DNA of 49,558 bases from Deltaproteobacteria bacterium (GTDB lineage: Bacteria; Bdellovibrionota_B; Oligoflexia; Oligoflexales; CAIYRB01), in the NCBI GenBank assembly GCA_016874735.1, contig VGTI01000030.1, positions 1 through 49,558 on the forward strand, read 5' to 3'. Positions 6,881 through 17,404 of this stretch are shown here, in pieces. Both the position numbers and the translations under genes were made by a program. Numbering within the stretch: position 1 is the stretch's first letter; each line of letters begins with the position of its first letter. The notes beneath the pieces are model-generated. The model worked only from the letters and a program-made list of their open reading frames with translations. It searched no databases and was not told where the DNA came from.

Positions 6881-8566
6881 CTAGACTGAATAGAGGGACT
6901 CTACGATGCAGTTGATCTTAATTACGTCATTCCCATCGACAGCCTCCAGCTCCTGGTACATCGTCTGTGTGTCTGGGCCGACCTTGGGGATGCCGAAAAG
7001 ATACATGTCATTCTTGTTGAGCTGAGTGTTGGAGCTCACTATCTGAAAATACCTCTCAAAAAGATCGCTCCGCATGATGCGGTAAAAAACTTTTAAAGAC
7101 GGCGCCGTCGGCGATGGCTTCTTAGCGACGATGTAGTTCAATCCGTTTTCCAGAAAAAATCCGTTCGGGAGTTCTGATGAAAGGTAGATTCCAACGAATC
7201 TACGTTTGTCGCCTTTGTGGCTCCGCCTCCGGCAAATGATGATCTCTTTGAAGCGGTTGCAGTAGGTTTCAATGCTCGACTCAGTCGCGGCATAGCCCTT
7301 TTGGGTCCGTCTGCCGTCAAAGTTCTTCCGACCTTTCGTAGTGGCGTAAGGAAAGCGATCTTTTTTAACAGCGACCTCTTGCTGAAACGAGTACCTATCG
7401 CCTTCGTTTAAAATGTCATGGCCATAGATAATGCGATAACAGCCAGGCGCACTCTCAGCTTTGAGATAGTCCTTAACACGGTGGAGTACTAACTGACCCG
7501 TCGAGAAGGCTAATCCATGCTCCTCGAAATTTGGAAATGCTGAGATCTTCTTAATCCAGCCGAACTCTTGCTGATTCCTGGCTAGCAACATCATCAGGTC
7601 GTGGTGACTGAAGAGGTCGGTTTGTCGCACCTGAAACGCTGATCCATCGTGGAAGTCGTCGATGTCCACACATGGCAGGCACGACACGAGATGGTCTTCT
7701 GCGGGGGGCAATTTCTCCAGGGAAATGACAACGATCTCTTGGAGGACATCGCCACCGTAGAATTCCTGATTGCGGTTCGTGTAGTAGGAGATCTTCTGGA
7801 TGCTCGTTTCCTTGCTTAAAAGCTCTCGGAGCCTAAAAAAGTAACGTCCGCCGGTGAAGCTGCGAGGGACAATATACGAAAGTGCGCCCCCAGCTTTAAG
7901 AAAGTTAACGCCCTGGATGACGAATGCGCCGTACAAATTGGACACGGAGTAGATTTCTTGGACGGCTTCCTTTATCCGGTCAGGAAGCCTCTTTACTTCG
8001 ACCCATGGAGGATTGCCGATTACGTAATCGAACTTGCCGCCAAAAGCATCGGTGGCTTTCTCGTCTTCCAGATCGAGGGAGTCTATTTCGTGAAATACAG
8101 GAGGGCGGATCTTCCCGCCGAACTTCTGTTCGAAGTTGAGACAAGCAGCTCGGAGAAGTACAGGGTCAATTTCTGCACCTGCTAGATTCGGGATCACCTT
8201 CTCGTTGACAGAATTGATTGCTTCCTCCGGAGGGAGACCCTTTTCCTGGAAGAAGGCAATGGCCCTCTCGACAACGTGAATCAGAAAGTTCGCAGTCCCG
8301 CAGGACGGGTCAAGGAGCTTGGCGCCGCTAGCGATCCGTTCGATAAAGTTAATTGGAAGGCTGTCGAGAACGATGTCGACGATGTTCTCCTTGGTATGGA
8401 ACTGCCCAAGGGTCCCCTGCTTTACGTCGAGATCCTCAAGCAGACTAGGATACACAGCGAGGAAGTCATCTGCACATTTCAGTGAGGCTTCCGCCTTCGC
8501 GTTAAAGTCGAGGACTTTAGGCAGCACTAAAGCCTGGTCAAAAAAGTCCGAAAAACCAATCGCCAT
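6881..8566 (-). CDS. N6-adenine DNA methyltransferase of a type II R-M system (BsuBI/PstI-like)
   Basis: About 561 residues from ATG 8566 (GGGG eight bases upstream; a GTG at 8614 would add 16 residues but lacks a binding site). SAM motif I is LLDPSCGTANF (near residue 86) and catalytic motif IV is NPPW (near 185), the gamma-class order of adenine methyltransferases. An N-terminal helical part precedes motif I, and the C-terminal 250 residues should carry target recognition. It is divergent from, and 85 bases away from, the endonuclease gene, so it is the cognate protective enzyme. Expected activity is methylation of the adenine in the target site; CTGCAG is likely only if the endonuclease assignment holds. 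Confidence 0.85.
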   Translation of the reverse strand: MAIGFSDFFDQALVLPKVLDFNAKAEASLKCADDFLAVYPSLLEDLDVKQGTLGQFHTKENIVDIVLDSLPINFIERIASGAKLLDPSCGTANFLIHVVERAIAFFQEKGLPPEEAINSVNEKVIPNLAGAEIDPVLLRAACLNFEQKFGGKIRPPVFHEIDSLDLEDEKATDAFGGKFDYVIGNPPWVEVKRLPDRIKEAVQEIYSVSNLYGAFVIQGVNFLKAGGALSYIVPRSFTGGRYFFRLRELLSKETSIQKISYYTNRNQEFYGGDVLQEIVVISLEKLPPAEDHLVSCLPCVDIDDFHDGSAFQVRQTDLFSHHDLMMLLARNQQEFGWIKKISAFPNFEEHGLAFSTGQLVLHRVKDYLKAESAPGCYRIIYGHDILNEGDRYSFQQEVAVKKDRFPYATTKGRKNFDGRRTQKGYAATESSIETYCNRFKEIIICRRRSHKGDKRRFVGIYLSSELPNGFFLENGLNYIVAKKPSPTAPSLKVFYRIMRSDLFERYFQIVSSNTQLNKNDMYLFGIPKVGPDTQTMYQELEAVDGNDVIKINCIVESLYSV

Positions 8567-8651
8567 CTGTCGTATCCCCGGTTCTGGATGCGTATGAAGA
8601 TGGGATTCTAGCACAAACCGCTAGAAGGTTCAATAAAATCGGAGTCTTAAA

Positions 8652-9668
8652 ATGACGCGCGCAAGGACGCCATCCGAGCGAAAACACGAGCAATACTTCG
8701 AGCACCTCGTGGCTGAGGGAGAGCGGCCCCCTGCGCGACCGGGTGGGGTAGCGAAGGACACGATCGCTAAGGCCCTGGGCATCATCGCGTTTGACCAGCC
8801 AGATCTGATCGACGTGGTCGCCTGCCTGCTGGATACTTCGTTTCCTAGCCTCCTCGTGAAGGATTCCACTCTGGGTCTCACTCTTGCGGATGGGGCGACG
8901 ACAGCTCACATCGGTTGCTACGTTGGTATGTATATGCGCCATGGCAACAAACTCGATAGAGAAGGCCGTGACTACTGGATCAAGCCGCTTGTCCAAGTCG
9001 GAGTTATCCAGCTGGTTACATTTAGACCTGAGAGAGGTGTATTTGTCGATGGCCATCTTCACGCGAAGTCGCCTTACTCTGCGTACAGACTCGAGGCACG
9101 CTTCGTAGCGCTACTTTATAGAGCCGACTTCGTCGGCTTACGAAATTTCTTCATTGAGTCGGAAACAGCTAAGCGCCTGACTCTCCATGCTGAGTTGACT
9201 CGTCGGTCTATAGCTACCCACGGCTCCAGTCCTCACACCGAGCTAATTCGTCTGGCGTGCGAGAATTACGTTCCGCACTTTCTCCCTGGATACGAAATAG
9301 TCTTCGTCGATGATGCAGACGGCGAGCGAGTGTCAGACGAAGAAAAGGAAAAACTCGGGACGCATGGTCTCACCCTTACAATCGAACACTCTTTCCCCGA
9401 CGTATTACTAATCAATCCTAGCCAATCGGCTCTTTGGTTTATCGAGGCTGTAGTTTCCGATGGCGAAGTCGATGTTACAAAAGTCGAGCGTTTCGTTGTC
9501 TATTGCATTCGGCATGGCAAATTGTACGGAGGAGCGACGACCTGCTACCATTCGTGGAAGGCATGTGCAGCGCGCCAGGCAGCTCACAAGAACGCAGCGA
9601 TTGATTCCAACATCTGGATTGCTGACGACCCTTCTCGACAGATGATTGTGAAAAAAGGGGCGTCCTAG
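8652..9668 (+). CDS. Type II restriction endonuclease, BsuBI/PstI family
   Basis: A 338-residue protein. Residues about 1-180 form a helical N-terminal half that contains a BsuBI/PstI-like winged region. The C-terminal half holds the nuclease core, with D250 in SFPDVLLI and E265 in WFIEAVVSDGEV, the characteristic EAV.S.G signature of this family. ATG 8652 is preceded by GGAG at a seven-base spacing. It is transcribed away from the adjacent methyltransferase. Known members cut CTGCAG; whether this one does is inference. The pair lies inside the integrated element, a common way for R-M systems to spread. Confidence 0.75.
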   Translation: MTRARTPSERKHEQYFEHLVAEGERPPARPGGVAKDTIAKALGIIAFDQPDLIDVVACLLDTSFPSLLVKDSTLGLTLADGATTAHIGCYVGMYMRHGNKLDREGRDYWIKPLVQVGVIQLVTFRPERGVFVDGHLHAKSPYSAYRLEARFVALLYRADFVGLRNFFIESETAKRLTLHAELTRRSIATHGSSPHTELIRLACENYVPHFLPGYEIVFVDDADGERVSDEEKEKLGTHGLTLTIEHSFPDVLLINPSQSALWFIEAVVSDGEVDVTKVERFVVYCIRHGKLYGGATTCYHSWKACAARQAAHKNAAIDSNIWIADDPSRQMIVKKGAS

Positions 9669-9848
9669 GACTTAATGCGTGTCCAAGTTCTTCCACACAT
9701 TCTCTGTGGTGGATTTCACCGAAACTGACCAATTGTTATCTACTAAATTAAACTCATTTCACCGCCGCAAGCGAGCTAATTTAAGGGATTTACCTCATGA
9801 CGCATACGGGCTACTTTTTGACTGCTGAAGACGTCCGCGAACTGGAGG
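9669..9848. other. Short intergenic with a 23-codon frame
   Basis: Between the endonuclease stop and the end of the convergent membrane-protein gene there is a tiny plus-strand frame at 9797-9868 (starts MTHTGYFLTAEDVREL, ends RRNA). It reads like the start of a longer helical protein that is cut short, so it may be a truncated gene; nothing recognisable continues in other frames. Confidence 0.3.
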
Positions 9849-10391
9849 TCATTCGAAGAAATGCTTGAAGAGCCACTTAACCCATATTCTGATGACAACA
9901 AGCACGGCAATTGCTGCGATTAGCGCCGCCGCGAATTCGCCGATCGCTAAGGCCATGTTGGGTGGCGCAAAGTCCTTAATAGTCAGGCAGAGACCCTCGT
10001 CCGTCAGCAGGTACCCTTCCCCTGTTAGGCAGGTTTCCCAGTCATCGGGGTTGGATTCAGAAGGTCTAGGTGTCTTTTCGTTATTGGCGCTGTTTTGCCC
10101 GCCCTTCGTTTTAACGGCAGTAGCAACATTTGCTTGAGCCGTCGTTCCCGTAGCAACGCGTCCGCTACTGACGCCGACGGCGGCGAGCTCGTCCTTAGCC
10201 GGTGGCACTGATAGATTCTTTTGGCTTTCGCTGGCTGCTACAGCGTTGCTGTAACGCTGAGCTTGCCTCTTTTCTCTATGAATAGTCACGTCATAAGAGG
10301 CGACGGCGACAGTTACTAGGGCCACTACGGCGCCCGAAAAGTAGAGCTTGTCCAGTGTCACGAGGATCTTTCGGGTTGCCGGTTTCACCAT
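9849..10391 (-). CDS. Membrane-anchored protein, unknown function
   Basis: A 180-residue protein with one hydrophobic helix near residues 15-32 and a second near 144-168, ending in a short basic tail (KWLFKHFFE). The loop between them is about 110 residues, rich in Ala, Ser, Thr and Lys, with two cysteines in a short segment (ETCLTGEGYLLTDEGLCL) that could form a disulfide if the loop is periplasmic. No family is recognised. It is a single minus-strand gene within the integrated element. Confidence 0.55.
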   Translation of the reverse strand: MVKPATRKILVTLDKLYFSGAVVALVTVAVASYDVTIHREKRQAQRYSNAVAASESQKNLSVPPAKDELAAVGVSSGRVATGTTAQANVATAVKTKGGQNSANNEKTPRPSESNPDDWETCLTGEGYLLTDEGLCLTIKDFAPPNMALAIGEFAAALIAAIAVLVVIRIWVKWLFKHFFE

Positions 10392-10720
10392 GCTTATTGC
10401 CTAGTCTTTTTGCCTACAGGTCCGATCTACTTGGTGATCGGAAACTTATGTCTAATCTTTAGAGGGTTCATTTCAGTTCGAGCGTCCGGTGGGCCGACAT
10501 GGCAGATTTGAGCTACTTTTTAATGGGGGACCCGCAGTCCCCCCACCCCGCACACATGACAACGGCATCCTAAAGCACCTCCACCGCCAACGGGACTCGG
10601 TCAATTTCTAAAAAATTATAACTATTCGTATTTACAGGACATTATCAAATCAAATCCCATGCAACAATGCGAAAGATAGTGTAATTCTGCGGGGTAAACC
10701 CTTTTAGAGGTGCTAACCCA
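10392..10720. other. Intergenic region with a strong GC hairpin
   Basis: 329 bases without a credible gene. It contains the hairpin described at 10525-10543, a C-rich run after it, and an AT-rich stretch near 10600-10650 before the TTG start of the next gene. A replication or transfer origin would be expected somewhere in an element carrying a Rep protein, and this is one of two hairpin-bearing candidates. Confidence 0.45.
10525..10543. promoter_or_regulatory. GC-rich hairpin, candidate origin structure
   Basis: GGGGGAC (10525-10531), a five-base loop, then GTCCCCC (10537-10543), seven perfect pairs. No T-tract follows on either strand, so a terminator is unlikely. The C-rich run continues on the right. 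It could be an oriT or a single-strand origin; there is no direct evidence. Confidence 0.4.
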
Positions 10721-11803
10721 TTGAAGTCATTGAAGCCCCCATTGAGAGAGAACAAGCTGGCAGCACTTTTTATCCCAGGCCCAACCGATACGGATGCCCT
10801 GAAGTGGCGATTGTGGCTGATTAAGAAATGGCGTCCCGCGGATTGCGAGCAACTTATAAATTTACTCAAGGCAGGGAAAAAAGATTGGCAGCCTAAGCAT
10901 GCGCGGATGGCAGAGTCTCTTGCTGATTCGATAGTGATCGACGAAGTTGATCGCGTTGAAATGCTAGCTGGACATATGATCAAGGATGCTGAAAACCTAC
11001 CCACCAAATCCGTGCAGTATATGCATCGGAATTCGGGTTTATTCGTGAATCCCAAAGACCCCAATCCAGAACTGACCGTGAAGAACTTCCGTGCTAATTT
11101 GGTCGACCTACGGGATTCAATTTTCACAGAGTATCTCCCGCGTATTCGCGCAAAATTCGCTGTGCTTGAAGTATTGGCGATTTTGCCCATGAGGCCCACC
11201 ATCATCAGACTCATCCAGGAAGATCTGACCTATTTGGGCTCAGGTTTTGTTATCAATTGGATCAAAGCCAACCAATATCTTGTGCAGCACGGCAGCAAAT
11301 CCGAGCAAATTCGGGCTAAGTCAGCCCTTGATAGGCTTGCGAGCGTGATAACCGTTGACCAAAGGAGGCGTATCAAAGGGACAGTAAACCAATGGTTCGT
11401 CTATTTTCGGTTCCTTAGAATGTGTGAAGAACTAGATGCCTCTCGGCGCGGTTATCGTCAAACGCTTACGATTGCCCATCGTAGAGCCAAACTGCCAGCC
11501 TATGATCGAAAGTATTTTGACAAGTTTTGTGAGGTATTCCGGATCGGTAAAATGCACCAAAATCGGGTACTGAGCCGCCCACCGTCCCACGGAATCAAAG
11601 AAATTGTGATCGATTGCCTAATCGAGGACGGCTTGGTGGCCTCCCCCAAAGCTTTTCGTGTTCTTTACACTAAACTAGGTAAACTAGCGAAAAATCACGA
11701 CTGGATTGGTATCTCTGTCATCGAGAGTTTGCTTGATGCTCGGAGGGTTGCACCCAAAATCAAAATGGTGCCCACTGGAGAAGTGTTTAAATTCATCAAT
11801 TAA
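10721..11803 (+). CDS. Hypothetical basic protein of the integrated element
   Basis: A 360-residue, largely helical, Lys/Arg-rich soluble protein. It starts at TTG with AGAGG ten bases upstream. No catalytic motif or membrane segment is visible. Its position next to the Rep-like gene on the same strand, with an 89-base gap, suggests a role in the element's replication or transfer, but this is a guess. A defence or abortive-infection role cannot be excluded. Confidence 0.6.
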   Translation: MKSLKPPLRENKLAALFIPGPTDTDALKWRLWLIKKWRPADCEQLINLLKAGKKDWQPKHARMAESLADSIVIDEVDRVEMLAGHMIKDAENLPTKSVQYMHRNSGLFVNPKDPNPELTVKNFRANLVDLRDSIFTEYLPRIRAKFAVLEVLAILPMRPTIIRLIQEDLTYLGSGFVINWIKANQYLVQHGSKSEQIRAKSALDRLASVITVDQRRRIKGTVNQWFVYFRFLRMCEELDASRRGYRQTLTIAHRRAKLPAYDRKYFDKFCEVFRIGKMHQNRVLSRPPSHGIKEIVIDCLIEDGLVASPKAFRVLYTKLGKLAKNHDWIGISVIESLLDARRVAPKIKMVPTGEVFKFIN

Positions 11804-11873
11804 AACAGATAGTTGATGGATTCGCTTTTGCCTACCTAAATCGTCATTTAGCCCGGGAAGATTTTTGAGCCGC

Positions 11874-11893
11874 TGCAGGTTTCAATACCTGCA
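11874..11893. promoter_or_regulatory. Hairpin at the Rep start codon
   Basis: TGCAGGT (11874-11880), loop TTCAAT, ACCTGCA (11887-11893): a perfect seven-base stem whose last base is the A of the rep ATG. A CTGCAG hexamer, the PstI/BsuBI target, overlaps the left arm at 11873-11878. In mRNA the stem would occlude initiation; in DNA it could be a Rep-binding or nicking site. No Shine-Dalgarno is visible here. Confidence 0.5.
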
Positions 11894-12879
11894 TGATGAT
11901 TACTTACACTTGCACAATGTGTGGATTAAAAGGTCCTGGATGCGGATGCCTGGATGGCGTGACCGCATTTTTTGAGATCATGCTGAAGGCGAGTCAGGCC
12001 GTATCAAGTACGAAACTTGCGTCAAATCATGTCGGGCCAGATCGGGCTGAAGGTTGTTTAGATAAGCTGATACTGCTGTCGAAAGTAGCCGTGCCACGCG
12101 AGAACTTAGAGCGTCGTTTGGCCGAGTCGGGTGTCACGCCACGAGTCTGTACTCTCAAAGATCGCAAGTGGTATTTATTGGGCCGAGACGGAGTCCAGTT
12201 TTATCTCGGCCATCCTGAAAATACTCGGATCCACAAAATCATTACCCGTCCCAGCGCCTTCGTAAGCTGGGATGCGTATATTAAGCATCTGAAAGATCTT
12301 TGCGGCGACGCTGCCCTTAGCGCCAAGATCCAAAGAATCGATCTGACGGTCGACTACCATACCCCTTTCGCAAATATGCTGCGTTGCTTGGATGTTACCC
12401 ATAAGCGCATACGTACAGAATATCAGGAGCATTCCGGGATCAAGACGGGCCTTTTGATTGGAGCTGGCGCCAATAAAATCGTTGTTTACGACAAATCTAA
12501 AGAACGTGGTGAGCAGTTAGACAGGAGCCGAATCGAAATTCAATTATCAGGAAATGCCGCGCCCAAGGTAACTATCGACGATCTGCCTAGGGCTTTGATC
12601 GTGCCTGAATTCAGGCCGTTTAAGTCGCTAAGACTCAGCGATGTGCGGATCGATGTATCTGCAGCCACCCATCCCGAAGCGGTGGTTCACCGCATGGCGG
12701 AGTTTGAAACGTTATGGCGTCACAACGGTTTCTACGGTGCGCGCAAGGCGCTGAATGGGTCGCGCAACTTCCAGCGTGATGTGCAGCAACTGCTGACTTT
12801 GCAACGTTGGTCTATAGAACCGGATGACGTGTTACGTGAATCATTGAACCGATTTTTTAATCAGGGAGTAAGCCGATGA
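11893..12879 (+). CDS. Replication-initiation-factor-like protein (Rep_trans-type)
   Basis: A 328-residue protein. The N-terminus has a cysteine cluster (C7, C10, C17, C19). The core shows RIDLTVDYH near residue 147, then VVYDKSKERG near 198, then RSRIEIQL, the strand order and signature of the Rep_trans/phage replication initiation family (NicK of ICEBs1, pT181-type Rep), in which a tyrosine nicks the origin. The 3' end overlaps the next gene by four bases (ATGA). A relaxase or replication initiator for the excised circle fits the neighbouring recombinase. The exact catalytic tyrosine cannot be assigned from sequence alone. Confidence 0.55.
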   Translation: MMITYTCTMCGLKGPGCGCLDGVTAFFEIMLKASQAVSSTKLASNHVGPDRAEGCLDKLILLSKVAVPRENLERRLAESGVTPRVCTLKDRKWYLLGRDGVQFYLGHPENTRIHKIITRPSAFVSWDAYIKHLKDLCGDAALSAKIQRIDLTVDYHTPFANMLRCLDVTHKRIRTEYQEHSGIKTGLLIGAGANKIVVYDKSKERGEQLDRSRIEIQLSGNAAPKVTIDDLPRALIVPEFRPFKSLRLSDVRIDVSAATHPEAVVHRMAEFETLWRHNGFYGARKALNGSRNFQRDVQQLLTLQRWSIEPDDVLRESLNRFFNQGVSR

Positions 12880-13304
12880 AGGCGAAGGAGATGCCGAAGA
12901 TGTCACCGCAGCAAAAGCCCAAGCACAGTTATTTTGCAGGATTGAAAACGGAGTACGATGCGCTTGAATTAGAAGACGTGTACCAGGAGCTTGAGGGGGA
13001 GTTTAGCCCAGCGACATTCACGGGCAGAGTCCTACTTCAGCAACTCAGCCTTGATATAGTCCGACTCGGGAGGCTTCAGCGATATGAGGCTGAGGCTTTG
13101 CGAGAGGAGTTAAATCCGAGGCGGTATTTTGACGCCGCAGAGTTTGCCGCTGACTGCTCGCGGATTGTGATGGAGGAGGGAGTAAAGGCCCAAGTGTCCG
13201 AAAACTTTCTAAAAAAAGTGGACTTAATTTACACCCGCTATGAAACGAACGTTTTCAATCGGATTTTACGGCTCCTTGAAATCCTTAAAGCTCTTCAAAT
13301 TTGA
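12876..13304 (+). CDS. Hypothetical protein co-translated with Rep
   Basis: A 142-residue, helical, charged protein starting MKAKEMPKMSPQQKPK. It shows no cysteine motif or membrane segment. The ATGA overlap with the rep gene indicates translational coupling, so it probably serves replication or its control. No family is recognised. Confidence 0.6.
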   Translation: MKAKEMPKMSPQQKPKHSYFAGLKTEYDALELEDVYQELEGEFSPATFTGRVLLQQLSLDIVRLGRLQRYEAEALREELNPRRYFDAAEFAADCSRIVMEEGVKAQVSENFLKKVDLIYTRYETNVFNRILRLLEILKALQI

Positions 13305-13358
13305 CTGCTTTGACTAGGTCACAATCTGCAAAAGCATAACCATTACTGGGGTTTCAGT

Positions 13359-13563
13359 ATGTTGAATAATGTTGAGGCAAACCGTGCTAAAAACAGGTCC
13401 CTTGTCCAGATCAAGGAGGCCGCGAAGTGCCTGGGGATCCATCCCGATACTTTGCGACGCTGGGTAGCTACGGGCAAGTTGCCGTGCCGGCGACATCCCA
13501 TCAATGGTTATCGGCTTTTTGAATTAACTGAGATTTATAAATTGATCGGGCAAATATACGGAA

Positions 13564-13574
<11 letters not shown>
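13359..13574 (+). CDS. MerR-type helix-turn-helix protein, candidate excisionase
   Basis: A 71-residue protein that is one winged HTH: IKEAAKCLGIHPDTLRRW, then a wing with GYRLFELTEI. This is the MerR/IS607-OrfA/Xis-like fold. It overlaps the recombinase gene by 11 bases, the arrangement seen for recombinase-HTH pairs. It may be a recombination directionality factor or a regulator of the recombinase. Confidence 0.75.
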
Positions 13575-15101
<1,527 letters not shown>

Positions 15102-15145
15102 GCATTTGGTGGTCCGAATCACTTGTTATCGCGTCCGGTTGCAGG

Positions 15146-15174
15146 AAAGTAGCAACCTTCCCCCAAGGTGTCAA
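15146..15174 (-). promoter_or_regulatory. Sigma70-type promoter of tRNA-Asp
   Basis: On the minus strand: -35 TTGACA (15169-15174), 17-base spacer, -10 TACTTT (15146-15151), about 45 bases before the tRNA 5' end. Confidence 0.75.
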
Positions 15175-15285
15175 CGGTCAGTTGAAAAAAAATTAAGATC
15201 TCCTTTTCGCCCCGCCACGACAAATGCCGCTAGCATGCGTTAACCTAATGATATAAGTGGACTGCTTGCAAAGGGGAGTGGGTCT

Positions 15286-16608
15286 GTGAGTACACCGCGT
15301 ACTGTGTTTATCGTCGATGATCAGGAGTCCATACTGACGACCGTGGCATCGGTCCTTGGCGATGAGTCCTATCGGGTGGAAACCTTTGCCAGCGCCGAGG
15401 CTTTAGCCATCGGGCTGCGTGAGTCGGTGCCGGACCTGATCTTGCTTGATATCTGGCTACCGGGTATCGATGGCCTTGAGGCACTGGCATCGTTGCGCCA
15501 GAAACATCCGCGTCTTCCGGTCATTCTCATGAGCGGTCATGCTGGCGTTGATATCGCCGTCAAGGCGATGAAGATCGGCGCCAGCGATTTTCTCGAGAAG
15601 CCGCTCAATCTCGATCACCTACTCGACAAGATTGCGACGCATTTGCCGCCAGTTGAGGGGGGCAAGACGGCGCCGTCCAAGGCCGAGTCGGCGCCGACCT
15701 TAGGCACGGGATCCTTCGGTGCGGTGACTCTGAGTCCGTCGAAGCAGCCTCAGCGCACACTCAAAGGCAACGCGGTTCTTAATGGTGTGGGCCTACTCAG
15801 TGGGCGGCCTACAGGGATCATCATCACGCCAGCACCGCTTGATAGCGGTATCGTCTTCCGCACGCTCGATGGTGTGGTGATACCTGCTCATATCACGGCG
15901 CTAGAAAACTTCGAGGCGATGACGGGCGCAAGTGCGCGGCCGTTCACAGCCAATTCGACGACGCTCGCCAAGGGCGGGCGCCATATCCGTACAGTAGAGC
16001 ATCTGCTTGCCGCACTGCATATGATGGGAGTGACCAACGCCCTCATTAAAGTCGAGGAAGAAATCCCCAACGTCGACGGCTCGGCGATGGATTACTGCCG
16101 CATTATTGCCGCCGCCGGGATCGAGGATCAAAAACGCCCACGCATCGATATCGTTGTTAATAAAAAGATTGGCGTCGGTGCCGAGAGTGTCGGCGAAAAG
16201 CACGTATACGTCGAGCCTTTTGATGGGTTCGAGGTCGTGCTAAGAGTCGACTATCCAGCTCCCATTGGCGAGCAGCGCTTCCACTTTAACGCTGCAAAAC
16301 AAAGTTTTGTTGACGAGATAGCCCCAGCGCGGTCCTTCAATACCTTTGAAAATATCGACATGGCCCAACAAAAGGGTATGGTCGGGTCGGGATATCTGAA
16401 CTCCCACATCATCATTCATGAAGGCAAAGTCATAAACACTAAGCTTAACTATCCCGATGAATTCGTTCGTCACAAGATGCTGGACCTATTGGGGGACCTC
16501 TTCCTGCTCGGTCACAATCTCCGGGGCAGGGTAGTCGGTAACATGACCTCTCACGGTCTCAATCAATCGCTCGCGCTGAAAATCCATCAGGAGCTATCCC
16601 AGCGCTGA
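15286..16608 (+). CDS. lpxC: Response-regulator receiver fused to LpxC
   Basis: 440 residues. Residues 5-120 are a complete receiver domain: D11/D12, phosphoacceptor D55 (ILLDIWLPGIDG), S83 and K105 (GASDFLEKP, NtrC-like). A flexible linker of about 35 residues (Pro/Ala/Lys/Ser) follows. From about 157 it is LpxC, the zinc deacetylase that commits UDP-3-O-acyl-GlcNAc to lipid A. Landmarks are TVEHLLAAL (Glu and His ligand near 238), RHKMLDLLGD (His and Asp ligands near 397 and 401) and SHGLNQSL (catalytic His near 424). The usual GLHSG reads GLLSG and ARTFG reads ARSFN. The start is GTG with GGGGAG upstream. The full active site suggests a working enzyme, possibly controlled by phosphorylation. 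Confidence 0.95.
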   Translation: MSTPRTVFIVDDQESILTTVASVLGDESYRVETFASAEALAIGLRESVPDLILLDIWLPGIDGLEALASLRQKHPRLPVILMSGHAGVDIAVKAMKIGASDFLEKPLNLDHLLDKIATHLPPVEGGKTAPSKAESAPTLGTGSFGAVTLSPSKQPQRTLKGNAVLNGVGLLSGRPTGIIITPAPLDSGIVFRTLDGVVIPAHITALENFEAMTGASARPFTANSTTLAKGGRHIRTVEHLLAALHMMGVTNALIKVEEEIPNVDGSAMDYCRIIAAAGIEDQKRPRIDIVVNKKIGVGAESVGEKHVYVEPFDGFEVVLRVDYPAPIGEQRFHFNAAKQSFVDEIAPARSFNTFENIDMAQQKGMVGSGYLNSHIIIHEGKVINTKLNYPDEFVRHKMLDLLGDLFLLGHNLRGRVVGNMTSHGLNQSLALKIHQELSQR

Positions 16609-16621
16609 TGGACGGTACGGT

Positions 16622-17404
16622 ATGCTTTTAGTTCAGAGTCTGGTGTTTACGGCGATTGGCGTGCTTGGTGCGGGAGTGCCGCTTTTTCTGGGGCGTCAGC
16701 GCGGTATTCCGCTGTGGCTTCTGCCTTTGGCGACGGGACTTATGGTGGGTTTGGCGTCGTTTGGTCTTTTGCCCGAGGTGATCCACGAGGGCGGTAAACT
16801 CAGTGCCACCGTGGTCCTGACGGTGGCGGTCGTTTACTCGATCTTTCACCTGCTGCATGTCAGTCAGCATGCGCACCTGACCCACGATCATTCGTCGGGG
16901 CATTGTGATCACCATCATGACGGTGACGATGAAATTGCCTCGGGTGATAATCGTAAGCCGCTACTTCTCTTCTTTTCGTCCATCGTGCTGCACTCGCTAT
17001 TTGACGGTGCTCTTCTCGTCATCTCGAACAATCTGGTACAGGCAGCATTCGTCACCGTCATGGTGTCGCTGGCTATTCATAAGCTCTTTGAAGCCATGTC
17101 GGTGTCGTCCATTCTGCTTGGACGACAGGGCAGCGTGCAGAGGGCGATACCGTTGGTGGCGCTTTATCTGGTGAGTTTTCCGACGGGAGTGGTGGTTGCT
17201 AGTGTGCTTAGGACCTTTGTGCGCGATGAGCTACTCCACCCTTTTGCCTTATTAGTCATGGCAGCAGCCATAGGAAATCTGGTGAGCTGTCTACTCTATG
17301 ACTTTGTCTTGCCAAGTTTGCGGCGGTTTAAACACGCTAAAGAGGAGCTGGCTTGGCTAGCTCTCGGCGTTGTCGTCGCAGCAGTAGTCTTAATTTGGCT
17401 CTAG
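16622..17404 (+). CDS. ZIP-family metal transporter
   Basis: A 260-residue polytopic protein with about eight helices. A His-rich loop (HAHLTHDHSSGHCDHHHD) sits after the third helix. Helices IV and V carry the transport-site motifs HSLFDGALL and IHKLFEAMSV, matching the ZIP pattern of paired His and acidic residues for Zn or another divalent metal. It begins 13 bases after the lpxC fusion stop on the same strand and is probably co-transcribed. Uptake direction is inferred from family knowledge. Confidence 0.8.
   Translation: MLLVQSLVFTAIGVLGAGVPLFLGRQRGIPLWLLPLATGLMVGLASFGLLPEVIHEGGKLSATVVLTVAVVYSIFHLLHVSQHAHLTHDHSSGHCDHHHDGDDEIASGDNRKPLLLFFSSIVLHSLFDGALLVISNNLVQAAFVTVMVSLAIHKLFEAMSVSSILLGRQGSVQRAIPLVALYLVSFPTGVVVASVLRTFVRDELLHPFALLVMAAAIGNLVSCLLYDFVLPSLRRFKHAKEELAWLALGVVVAAVVLIWL

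Follow-up and report, generated by a model that had tools for sequence, protein, structure and literature searches.

A receiver domain fused to LpxC in Oligoflexia: a candidate response regulator with lipid A deacetylase output

LpxC, the deacetylase at which lipid A commitment is set, is controlled in more than one way. That its level is set by proteolysis, as an earlier note on the DNA described here had put it, holds for E. coli, while other bacteria use other routes (PMC12444477), and a review from 2026 (PMC13333357) counts the control of LpxC activity, in contrast to that of its amount, among the questions still open. The NtrY-NtrX system (NtrYX) has been linked to the gene, as it lowers lpxC transcription in alphaproteobacteria (PMC12444477) and, in Rhodobacter sphaeroides, affects lpxC transcription and lipopolysaccharide (PMC7240162). 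Here a gene is described in which an LpxC domain is preceded, in the same frame, by a receiver domain. It lies on contig VGTI01000030.1 of assembly GCA_016874735.1 (Deltaproteobacteria bacterium, an uncultured relation of Oligoflexus placed in the Oligoflexia), of which the whole stretch analyzed, 49,558 nucleotides, is referred to as the window.

From its sequence and genome context, the fusion would be a response regulator that uses LpxC as its output domain, is phosphorylated by NtrY and has its LpxC activity altered as a result; we give this reading a probability of about 0.6. NtrY would phosphorylate D55 on an NtrX-like receiver, the receiver switch, or the pairing of receivers, would alter LpxC activity by way of a flexible linker, and an envelope signal could thus set lipid A commitment in a single step without transcription. 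Three points in this reading are inferred: the transfer of the phosphoryl group from NtrY, its consequence for LpxC activity and the sign of that consequence. With regard to direction, the analogy with CheB makes us lean slightly toward an unphosphorylated receiver that restrains LpxC. The opposite sign, with phosphorylation lowering LpxC activity, is nearly as likely, because NtrYX acts on lpxC transcription in that direction in alphaproteobacteria (PMC12444477).

The residues expected of both domains are present. The earlier note had placed a receiver set and three LpxC motifs in one frame with a linker between them, together with two deviations from the usual LpxC motifs, and all were found as claimed. 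The acidic pair D11/D12, D55, S83 and K105 make up the full residue set of PF00072, while the LpxC motifs are located at residues 238-239 (EH), 396-400 (HKMLD) and 422-424 (SHG), with GLLSG at 169-173 and ARSF at 348-351. The zinc and catalytic set is kept in full (E238, H239, H396, D400, D404 and H423), and its counterparts in Aquifex aeolicus LpxC are presumably E78, H79, H238, D242, D246 and H265. The protein passes the cut-offs of both the NCBIfam lpxC model TIGR00325 (196.5 bits, cut-off 187.25) and the Pfam LpxC model PF03331 (241.9, cut-off 27). Its AlphaFold2 model (mean predicted local distance difference test score 87.5) shows two ordered domains and predicts disorder for residues 126-142 of the linker, and the LpxC part of the model matches solved LpxC structures in Foldseek with an E-value of 3.7e-31.

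Full-length orthologs with 69-94% identity were identified both within the genus, where four further species have one (about 70-94%), and in the Oligoflexaceae, where four genomes do (71-73%). Some of them are also present in named public assemblies, among them ones from Umea and from the sediment of Lac Pavin. With full-length orthologs in eight other genomes from independent assemblies, the sequencing join error which the earlier note had named as a possible refutation is excluded. Both domains are under purifying selection, the ratio of nonsynonymous to synonymous substitution rates (dN/dS) being 0.03-0.10 for the receiver against three close relatives and 0.01 for the LpxC domain in the single pair with a computable dS, though dS is high and all of these values are rough. 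The fastest-changing segment of the fusion is the linker. A loose and variable linker would fit a receiver that is a passive leftover without regulatory role, but this, like the gene being an assembly artefact, is very improbable: the receiver is constrained as described, the orthologs come from independent assemblies, and D11, D12, D55 and K105 are found in 48 of 48 fusions from three phyla, with Ser or Thr at position 83 in all of them.

A search for architectures combining Response_reg with LpxC, suggested in the earlier note, found them in Desulfobacterota, Nitrospirota and Bdellovibrionota, so that the protein in the window is not unique. Nitrospirota, to which the Thermodesulfovibrionia locus L066 belongs, has 17 genomes with a fusion. 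In the Desulfobacterota phylum, which includes L069 from a Syntrophaceae genome, at least 59 genomes from a sample of 395 carry one, each with a single match stretching across both domains. No relatives were found in viral and plasmid collections. In an IQ-TREE phylogeny of the LpxC domain, 48 fused proteins form one clade (100/98) separate from 50 stand-alone enzymes. This clade comprises type A, with 21 members including the protein in the window (100/99), and type B, with the remaining 27 (98/92). Two independent fusion events were considered and are disfavored by the single LpxC clade; the receivers taken alone do not form one clade. The Oligoflexia fusions nest inside type A, which suggests that the fusion arrived in this class horizontally. 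The fusion of one other member of the genus (G003, locus L068) groups with the Oligoflexaceae copies (97/89) and not with its own genus, and it sits in a different gene neighborhood, which together hint at transfer between families. One genome of the Desulfobacterota-phylum sample (G910) has two different receiver-LpxC genes (L276 and L277).

In the genome of the window, LpxC occurs once, as the fusion. No second stand-alone lpxC was found there, so that the main refuting case of the earlier note, a separate active lpxC in the genome beside a dead copy here, falls away. Across the genus, too, the fusion was the one LpxC found in each of six genomes, although the copy of G001 carries a deletion. 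The sister genus (G006) has a stand-alone lpxC within a conserved gene neighborhood, and this neighborhood is syntenic in the four genomes inspected from the window's genus, where the flanking genes are kept and lpxC alone is gone. In three Oligoflexaceae (G027, G036 and G039) the old stand-alone lpxC persists beside the fusion, a state that looks like an lpxC replacement caught midway. The window's genome appears to retain the lipid A pathway, because fabZ, lpxA, lpxB, msbA and lpxK are clustered on another contig (LpxB was called with Pfam, the other four by reading). The deletion in the G001 copy (L040:3120-4253) is in frame and spans 183 bases, with a loss of 61 residues including the EH motif; no other LpxC was found in this genome, which is 93% complete, and the deletion is either an assembly error or the mark of a species without LpxC activity.

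The GLLSG and ARSF deviations are a fixed signature of type A as a whole and not private to this protein. They were examined in an alignment of 151 LpxC domains, consisting of the 48 fusions (21 type A, 27 type B) and 103 stand-alone enzymes. The position of the His in GLHSG (171 in the fusion) is Leu or Met in 21 of 21 type A domains. It is His in all 103 stand-alone domains and in all but one of the 27 type B domains. The Thr of ARTF (position 350) is Ser in every type A domain and Thr everywhere else. Both residues are conserved but not family-defining, and the fusion with its Leu and Ser still passes TIGR00325. This clean split from the stand-alone enzymes, and the retention of a canonical LpxC beside the fusion in some Nitrospirota, could point to a fused LpxC that has drifted to another substrate, outside the normal lipid A step. 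Such drift is improbable, given that no LpxC other than the fusion was found in five genomes of the genus, that five Nitrospirota genomes have type A as their single LpxC match, that the lipid A genes are retained in the window's genome and that every zinc and other catalytic residue is kept. In all, at least ten genomes of the window's genus and Nitrospirota have no LpxC but type A, and for this reason the enzyme is probably active and performs the ordinary LpxC reaction.

NtrY is probably the kinase partner, as indicated by the NtrX-like receiver and by genome context. The top NCBIfam models for the receiver are FixJ, NtrX and NtrC. The NtrX model (NF051870) reaches 96.2 bits against a whole-protein cut-off of 600, as the receiver alone matches and the AAA and Fis parts are absent; the fusion is not NtrX and is NtrX-like in its receiver only. 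In the receiver tree, which has few columns, fusion receivers and ntrY-linked NtrX are grouped apart from other NtrC-family receivers (82/79). In 12 of the 27 type B cases, 12-133 bases separate the end of an upstream ntrY from the fused receiver, which places the fusion in the ntrX slot. The gene order lpxC-ntrY-ntrX is found in 23 Desulfobacterota-type loci, one of them with the last gene cut by the contig end. An adjacency of lpxC and ntrX in Bdellovibrionota was considered and rejected, the lpxC-ntrY-ntrX cluster being found only in Desulfobacterota and relatives. Four proteins of 727-745 amino acids (L271, L272, L273 and L274) have the form receiver (REC)-AAA-LpxC, three of them encoded directly 3′ of ntrY, and their AAA part has the Walker A motif and lacks GAFTGA. 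The list of fusions from the Desulfobacterota phylum also holds further open frames of 700-820 amino acids with LpxC.

In the window's genus, ntrY is intact, with HAMP, PAS, HisKA and HATPase domains, and lies in a conserved operon, on a different contig from the fusion in the case of the window's genome. ntrX is missing from this operon in all six genomes, and elsewhere it is decayed, with mere traces left in G027 and an internal deletion in G033. Between the genus and G006, which retains NtrX, the phosphoacceptor helix of NtrY hardly differs. Receivers scoring at NtrX level are present in two of 10 fusion carriers versus 38 of 46 other genomes (Fisher p 3e-4, for lineages that are not independent). 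In this genus ntrY is immediately followed by a gene (L153:6217-7542) that carries DUF4388, and a SpoU methylase gene comes next; most ntrYX loci read from Bdellovibrionota are arranged in this way.

A number of observations weigh against phosphorylation by NtrY with an effect on LpxC activity. FixJ scores slightly ahead of NtrX on the fusion receiver (98.7 versus 96.2 bits), and the support for the grouping of fusion receivers with NtrX is modest. The type A fusion in the window has no adjoining gene for an ntrY-like kinase, nor does any of 20 type A relatives, some of which have little upstream DNA. The carriers G036 and G039 retain ntrX as well, and no docking between the two domains is visible in the structural model, where the linker is disordered. 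The lack of linkage in type A and the similar FixJ and NtrX scores would also fit one or more other histidine kinases as the partner in place of NtrY. We regard this as unlikely, since ntrY stays intact with a conserved phosphoacceptor helix after the loss of ntrX, and since type B fusions occupy the ntrX slot.

A receiver can also act through proteolysis, as that of RssB does. The main rival to control of activity is control of stability, in which the receiver is phosphorylated but governs the stability or location of LpxC, for instance through delivery to a protease or membrane complex, and not its catalysis. Judging from the model, the receiver together with the disordered linker could mask or unmask a recognition site, and proteolysis is the known means of LpxC control in E. 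coli (PMC12444477). We hold it to be rather unlikely, as neither an adaptor nor a degron was identified and the short C-terminus (ELSQR) is without a tail of the E. coli type.

The features of the locus are collected in Table 1. The gene after the fusion encodes a ZIP-family metal transporter, and LpxC itself is an enzyme that depends on zinc. The same order is found in three sister genomes and is absent from G001, G003 and the Oligoflexaceae; in some members of the genus the two genes may form an operon. The last residues of the serine recombinase (RDGRDLNPRPPA) run into the tRNA-Asp gene, as for an element integrated in a tRNA gene; no clear flanking repeat was found for it within 8000-15400.

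Table 1. Coordinates of the receiver-LpxC gene, its parts and its neighbors in the window
Feature	Position	Strand	Basis or remark
Large serine recombinase gene, upstream of fusion	13564-15101 (with tRNA-Asp)		
tRNA-Asp gene, just upstream of fusion	15025-15101	-	
Probable ribosome-binding site AAAGGGGAG, upstream of GTG start	15270..15278	+	Sequence
Receiver-LpxC fusion gene	15286..16608	+	440 amino acids, GTG start; Pfam, NCBIfam, orthologs
Receiver domain, residues 7-116	15304..15633	+	Pfam Response_reg, E-value 3.8e-29
D55 codon, predicted phospho-Asp of receiver	15448-15450	+	Alignment
Linker, residues 120-154, fastest-changing part	15643..15747	+	Model, dN/dS comparison, alignment
LpxC deacetylase domain, residues 156-434	15751..16587	+	Pfam E-value 1.1e-71, TIGR00325, Foldseek
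L171, replaces near-invariant His of GLHSG	15796..15798	+	LpxC domain alignment
E238-H239, catalytic Glu and zinc His	15997..16002	+	Invariant in 151 LpxC domains
S350, replaces Thr of ARTF	16333..16335	+	LpxC domain alignment
H396-K-M-L-D400, zinc His and Asp with Lys	16471..16485	+	LpxC domain alignment
H423, catalytic His	16552..16554	+	Invariant in alignment
ZIP-family metal transporter, 13 nucleotides after fusion	16622..17404	+	Pfam Zip, E-value 6.7e-13

The earlier note knew of no characterized example, and none was found in the literature searched. A receiver-LpxC protein is not mentioned in the reviews of LpxC control (PMC12444477, PMC13333357) or in the Desulfovibrio papers (PMC3333781, PMC4114195), a Leptospirillum paper (PMC12122527) mentions ordinary LpxC only, and no description was found in open-licence literature, although domain databases may list the architecture. 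Like the canonical LpxC enzymes of Pseudomonas aeruginosa, E. coli and A. aeolicus, the fusion has the LpxC fold (the best matches have template modelling scores of about 0.84-0.94 by target) and shares their zinc ligands and catalytic residues; it differs from them in its N-terminal receiver, its separate clade and its GLLSG and ARSF motifs. LpxC is also joined to another domain in the LpxC-FabZ protein of Bacteroidota. However, FabZ is a C-terminal enzyme whereas the added domain of the fusion is N-terminal and of the signaling kind, and no FabZ domain was matched in the fusion (NF009667, 170.2 versus a cut-off of 465).

Response regulators with an enzymatic output are already known, CheB and PleD being examples in which a receiver is likewise combined with a catalytic domain; LpxC as the output was not found in the searched literature. 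Direct control of LpxC through protein contact is known from its activation by MurA and its inhibition by LapB (PMC12444477, PMC13333357), but the controller in the fusion would be covalently attached and driven by phosphorylation. With this built-in covalent switch, a probable kinase and sibling forms (REC-AAA-LpxC, REC-LpxC and lpxC-ntrY-ntrX operons), allosteric control of LpxC becomes directly testable. The fusion resembles the NtrY-NtrX system in its NtrX-like receiver, in the position of type B in the ntrX slot beside ntrY and in the keeping of ntrY in the genus. Unlike NtrX, it is without DNA-binding and AAA domains and has an enzyme as its output, so that control would be direct and non-transcriptional. 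Through the fusion, the link between NtrYX and lipid A, otherwise an indirect one, could gain a physical basis.
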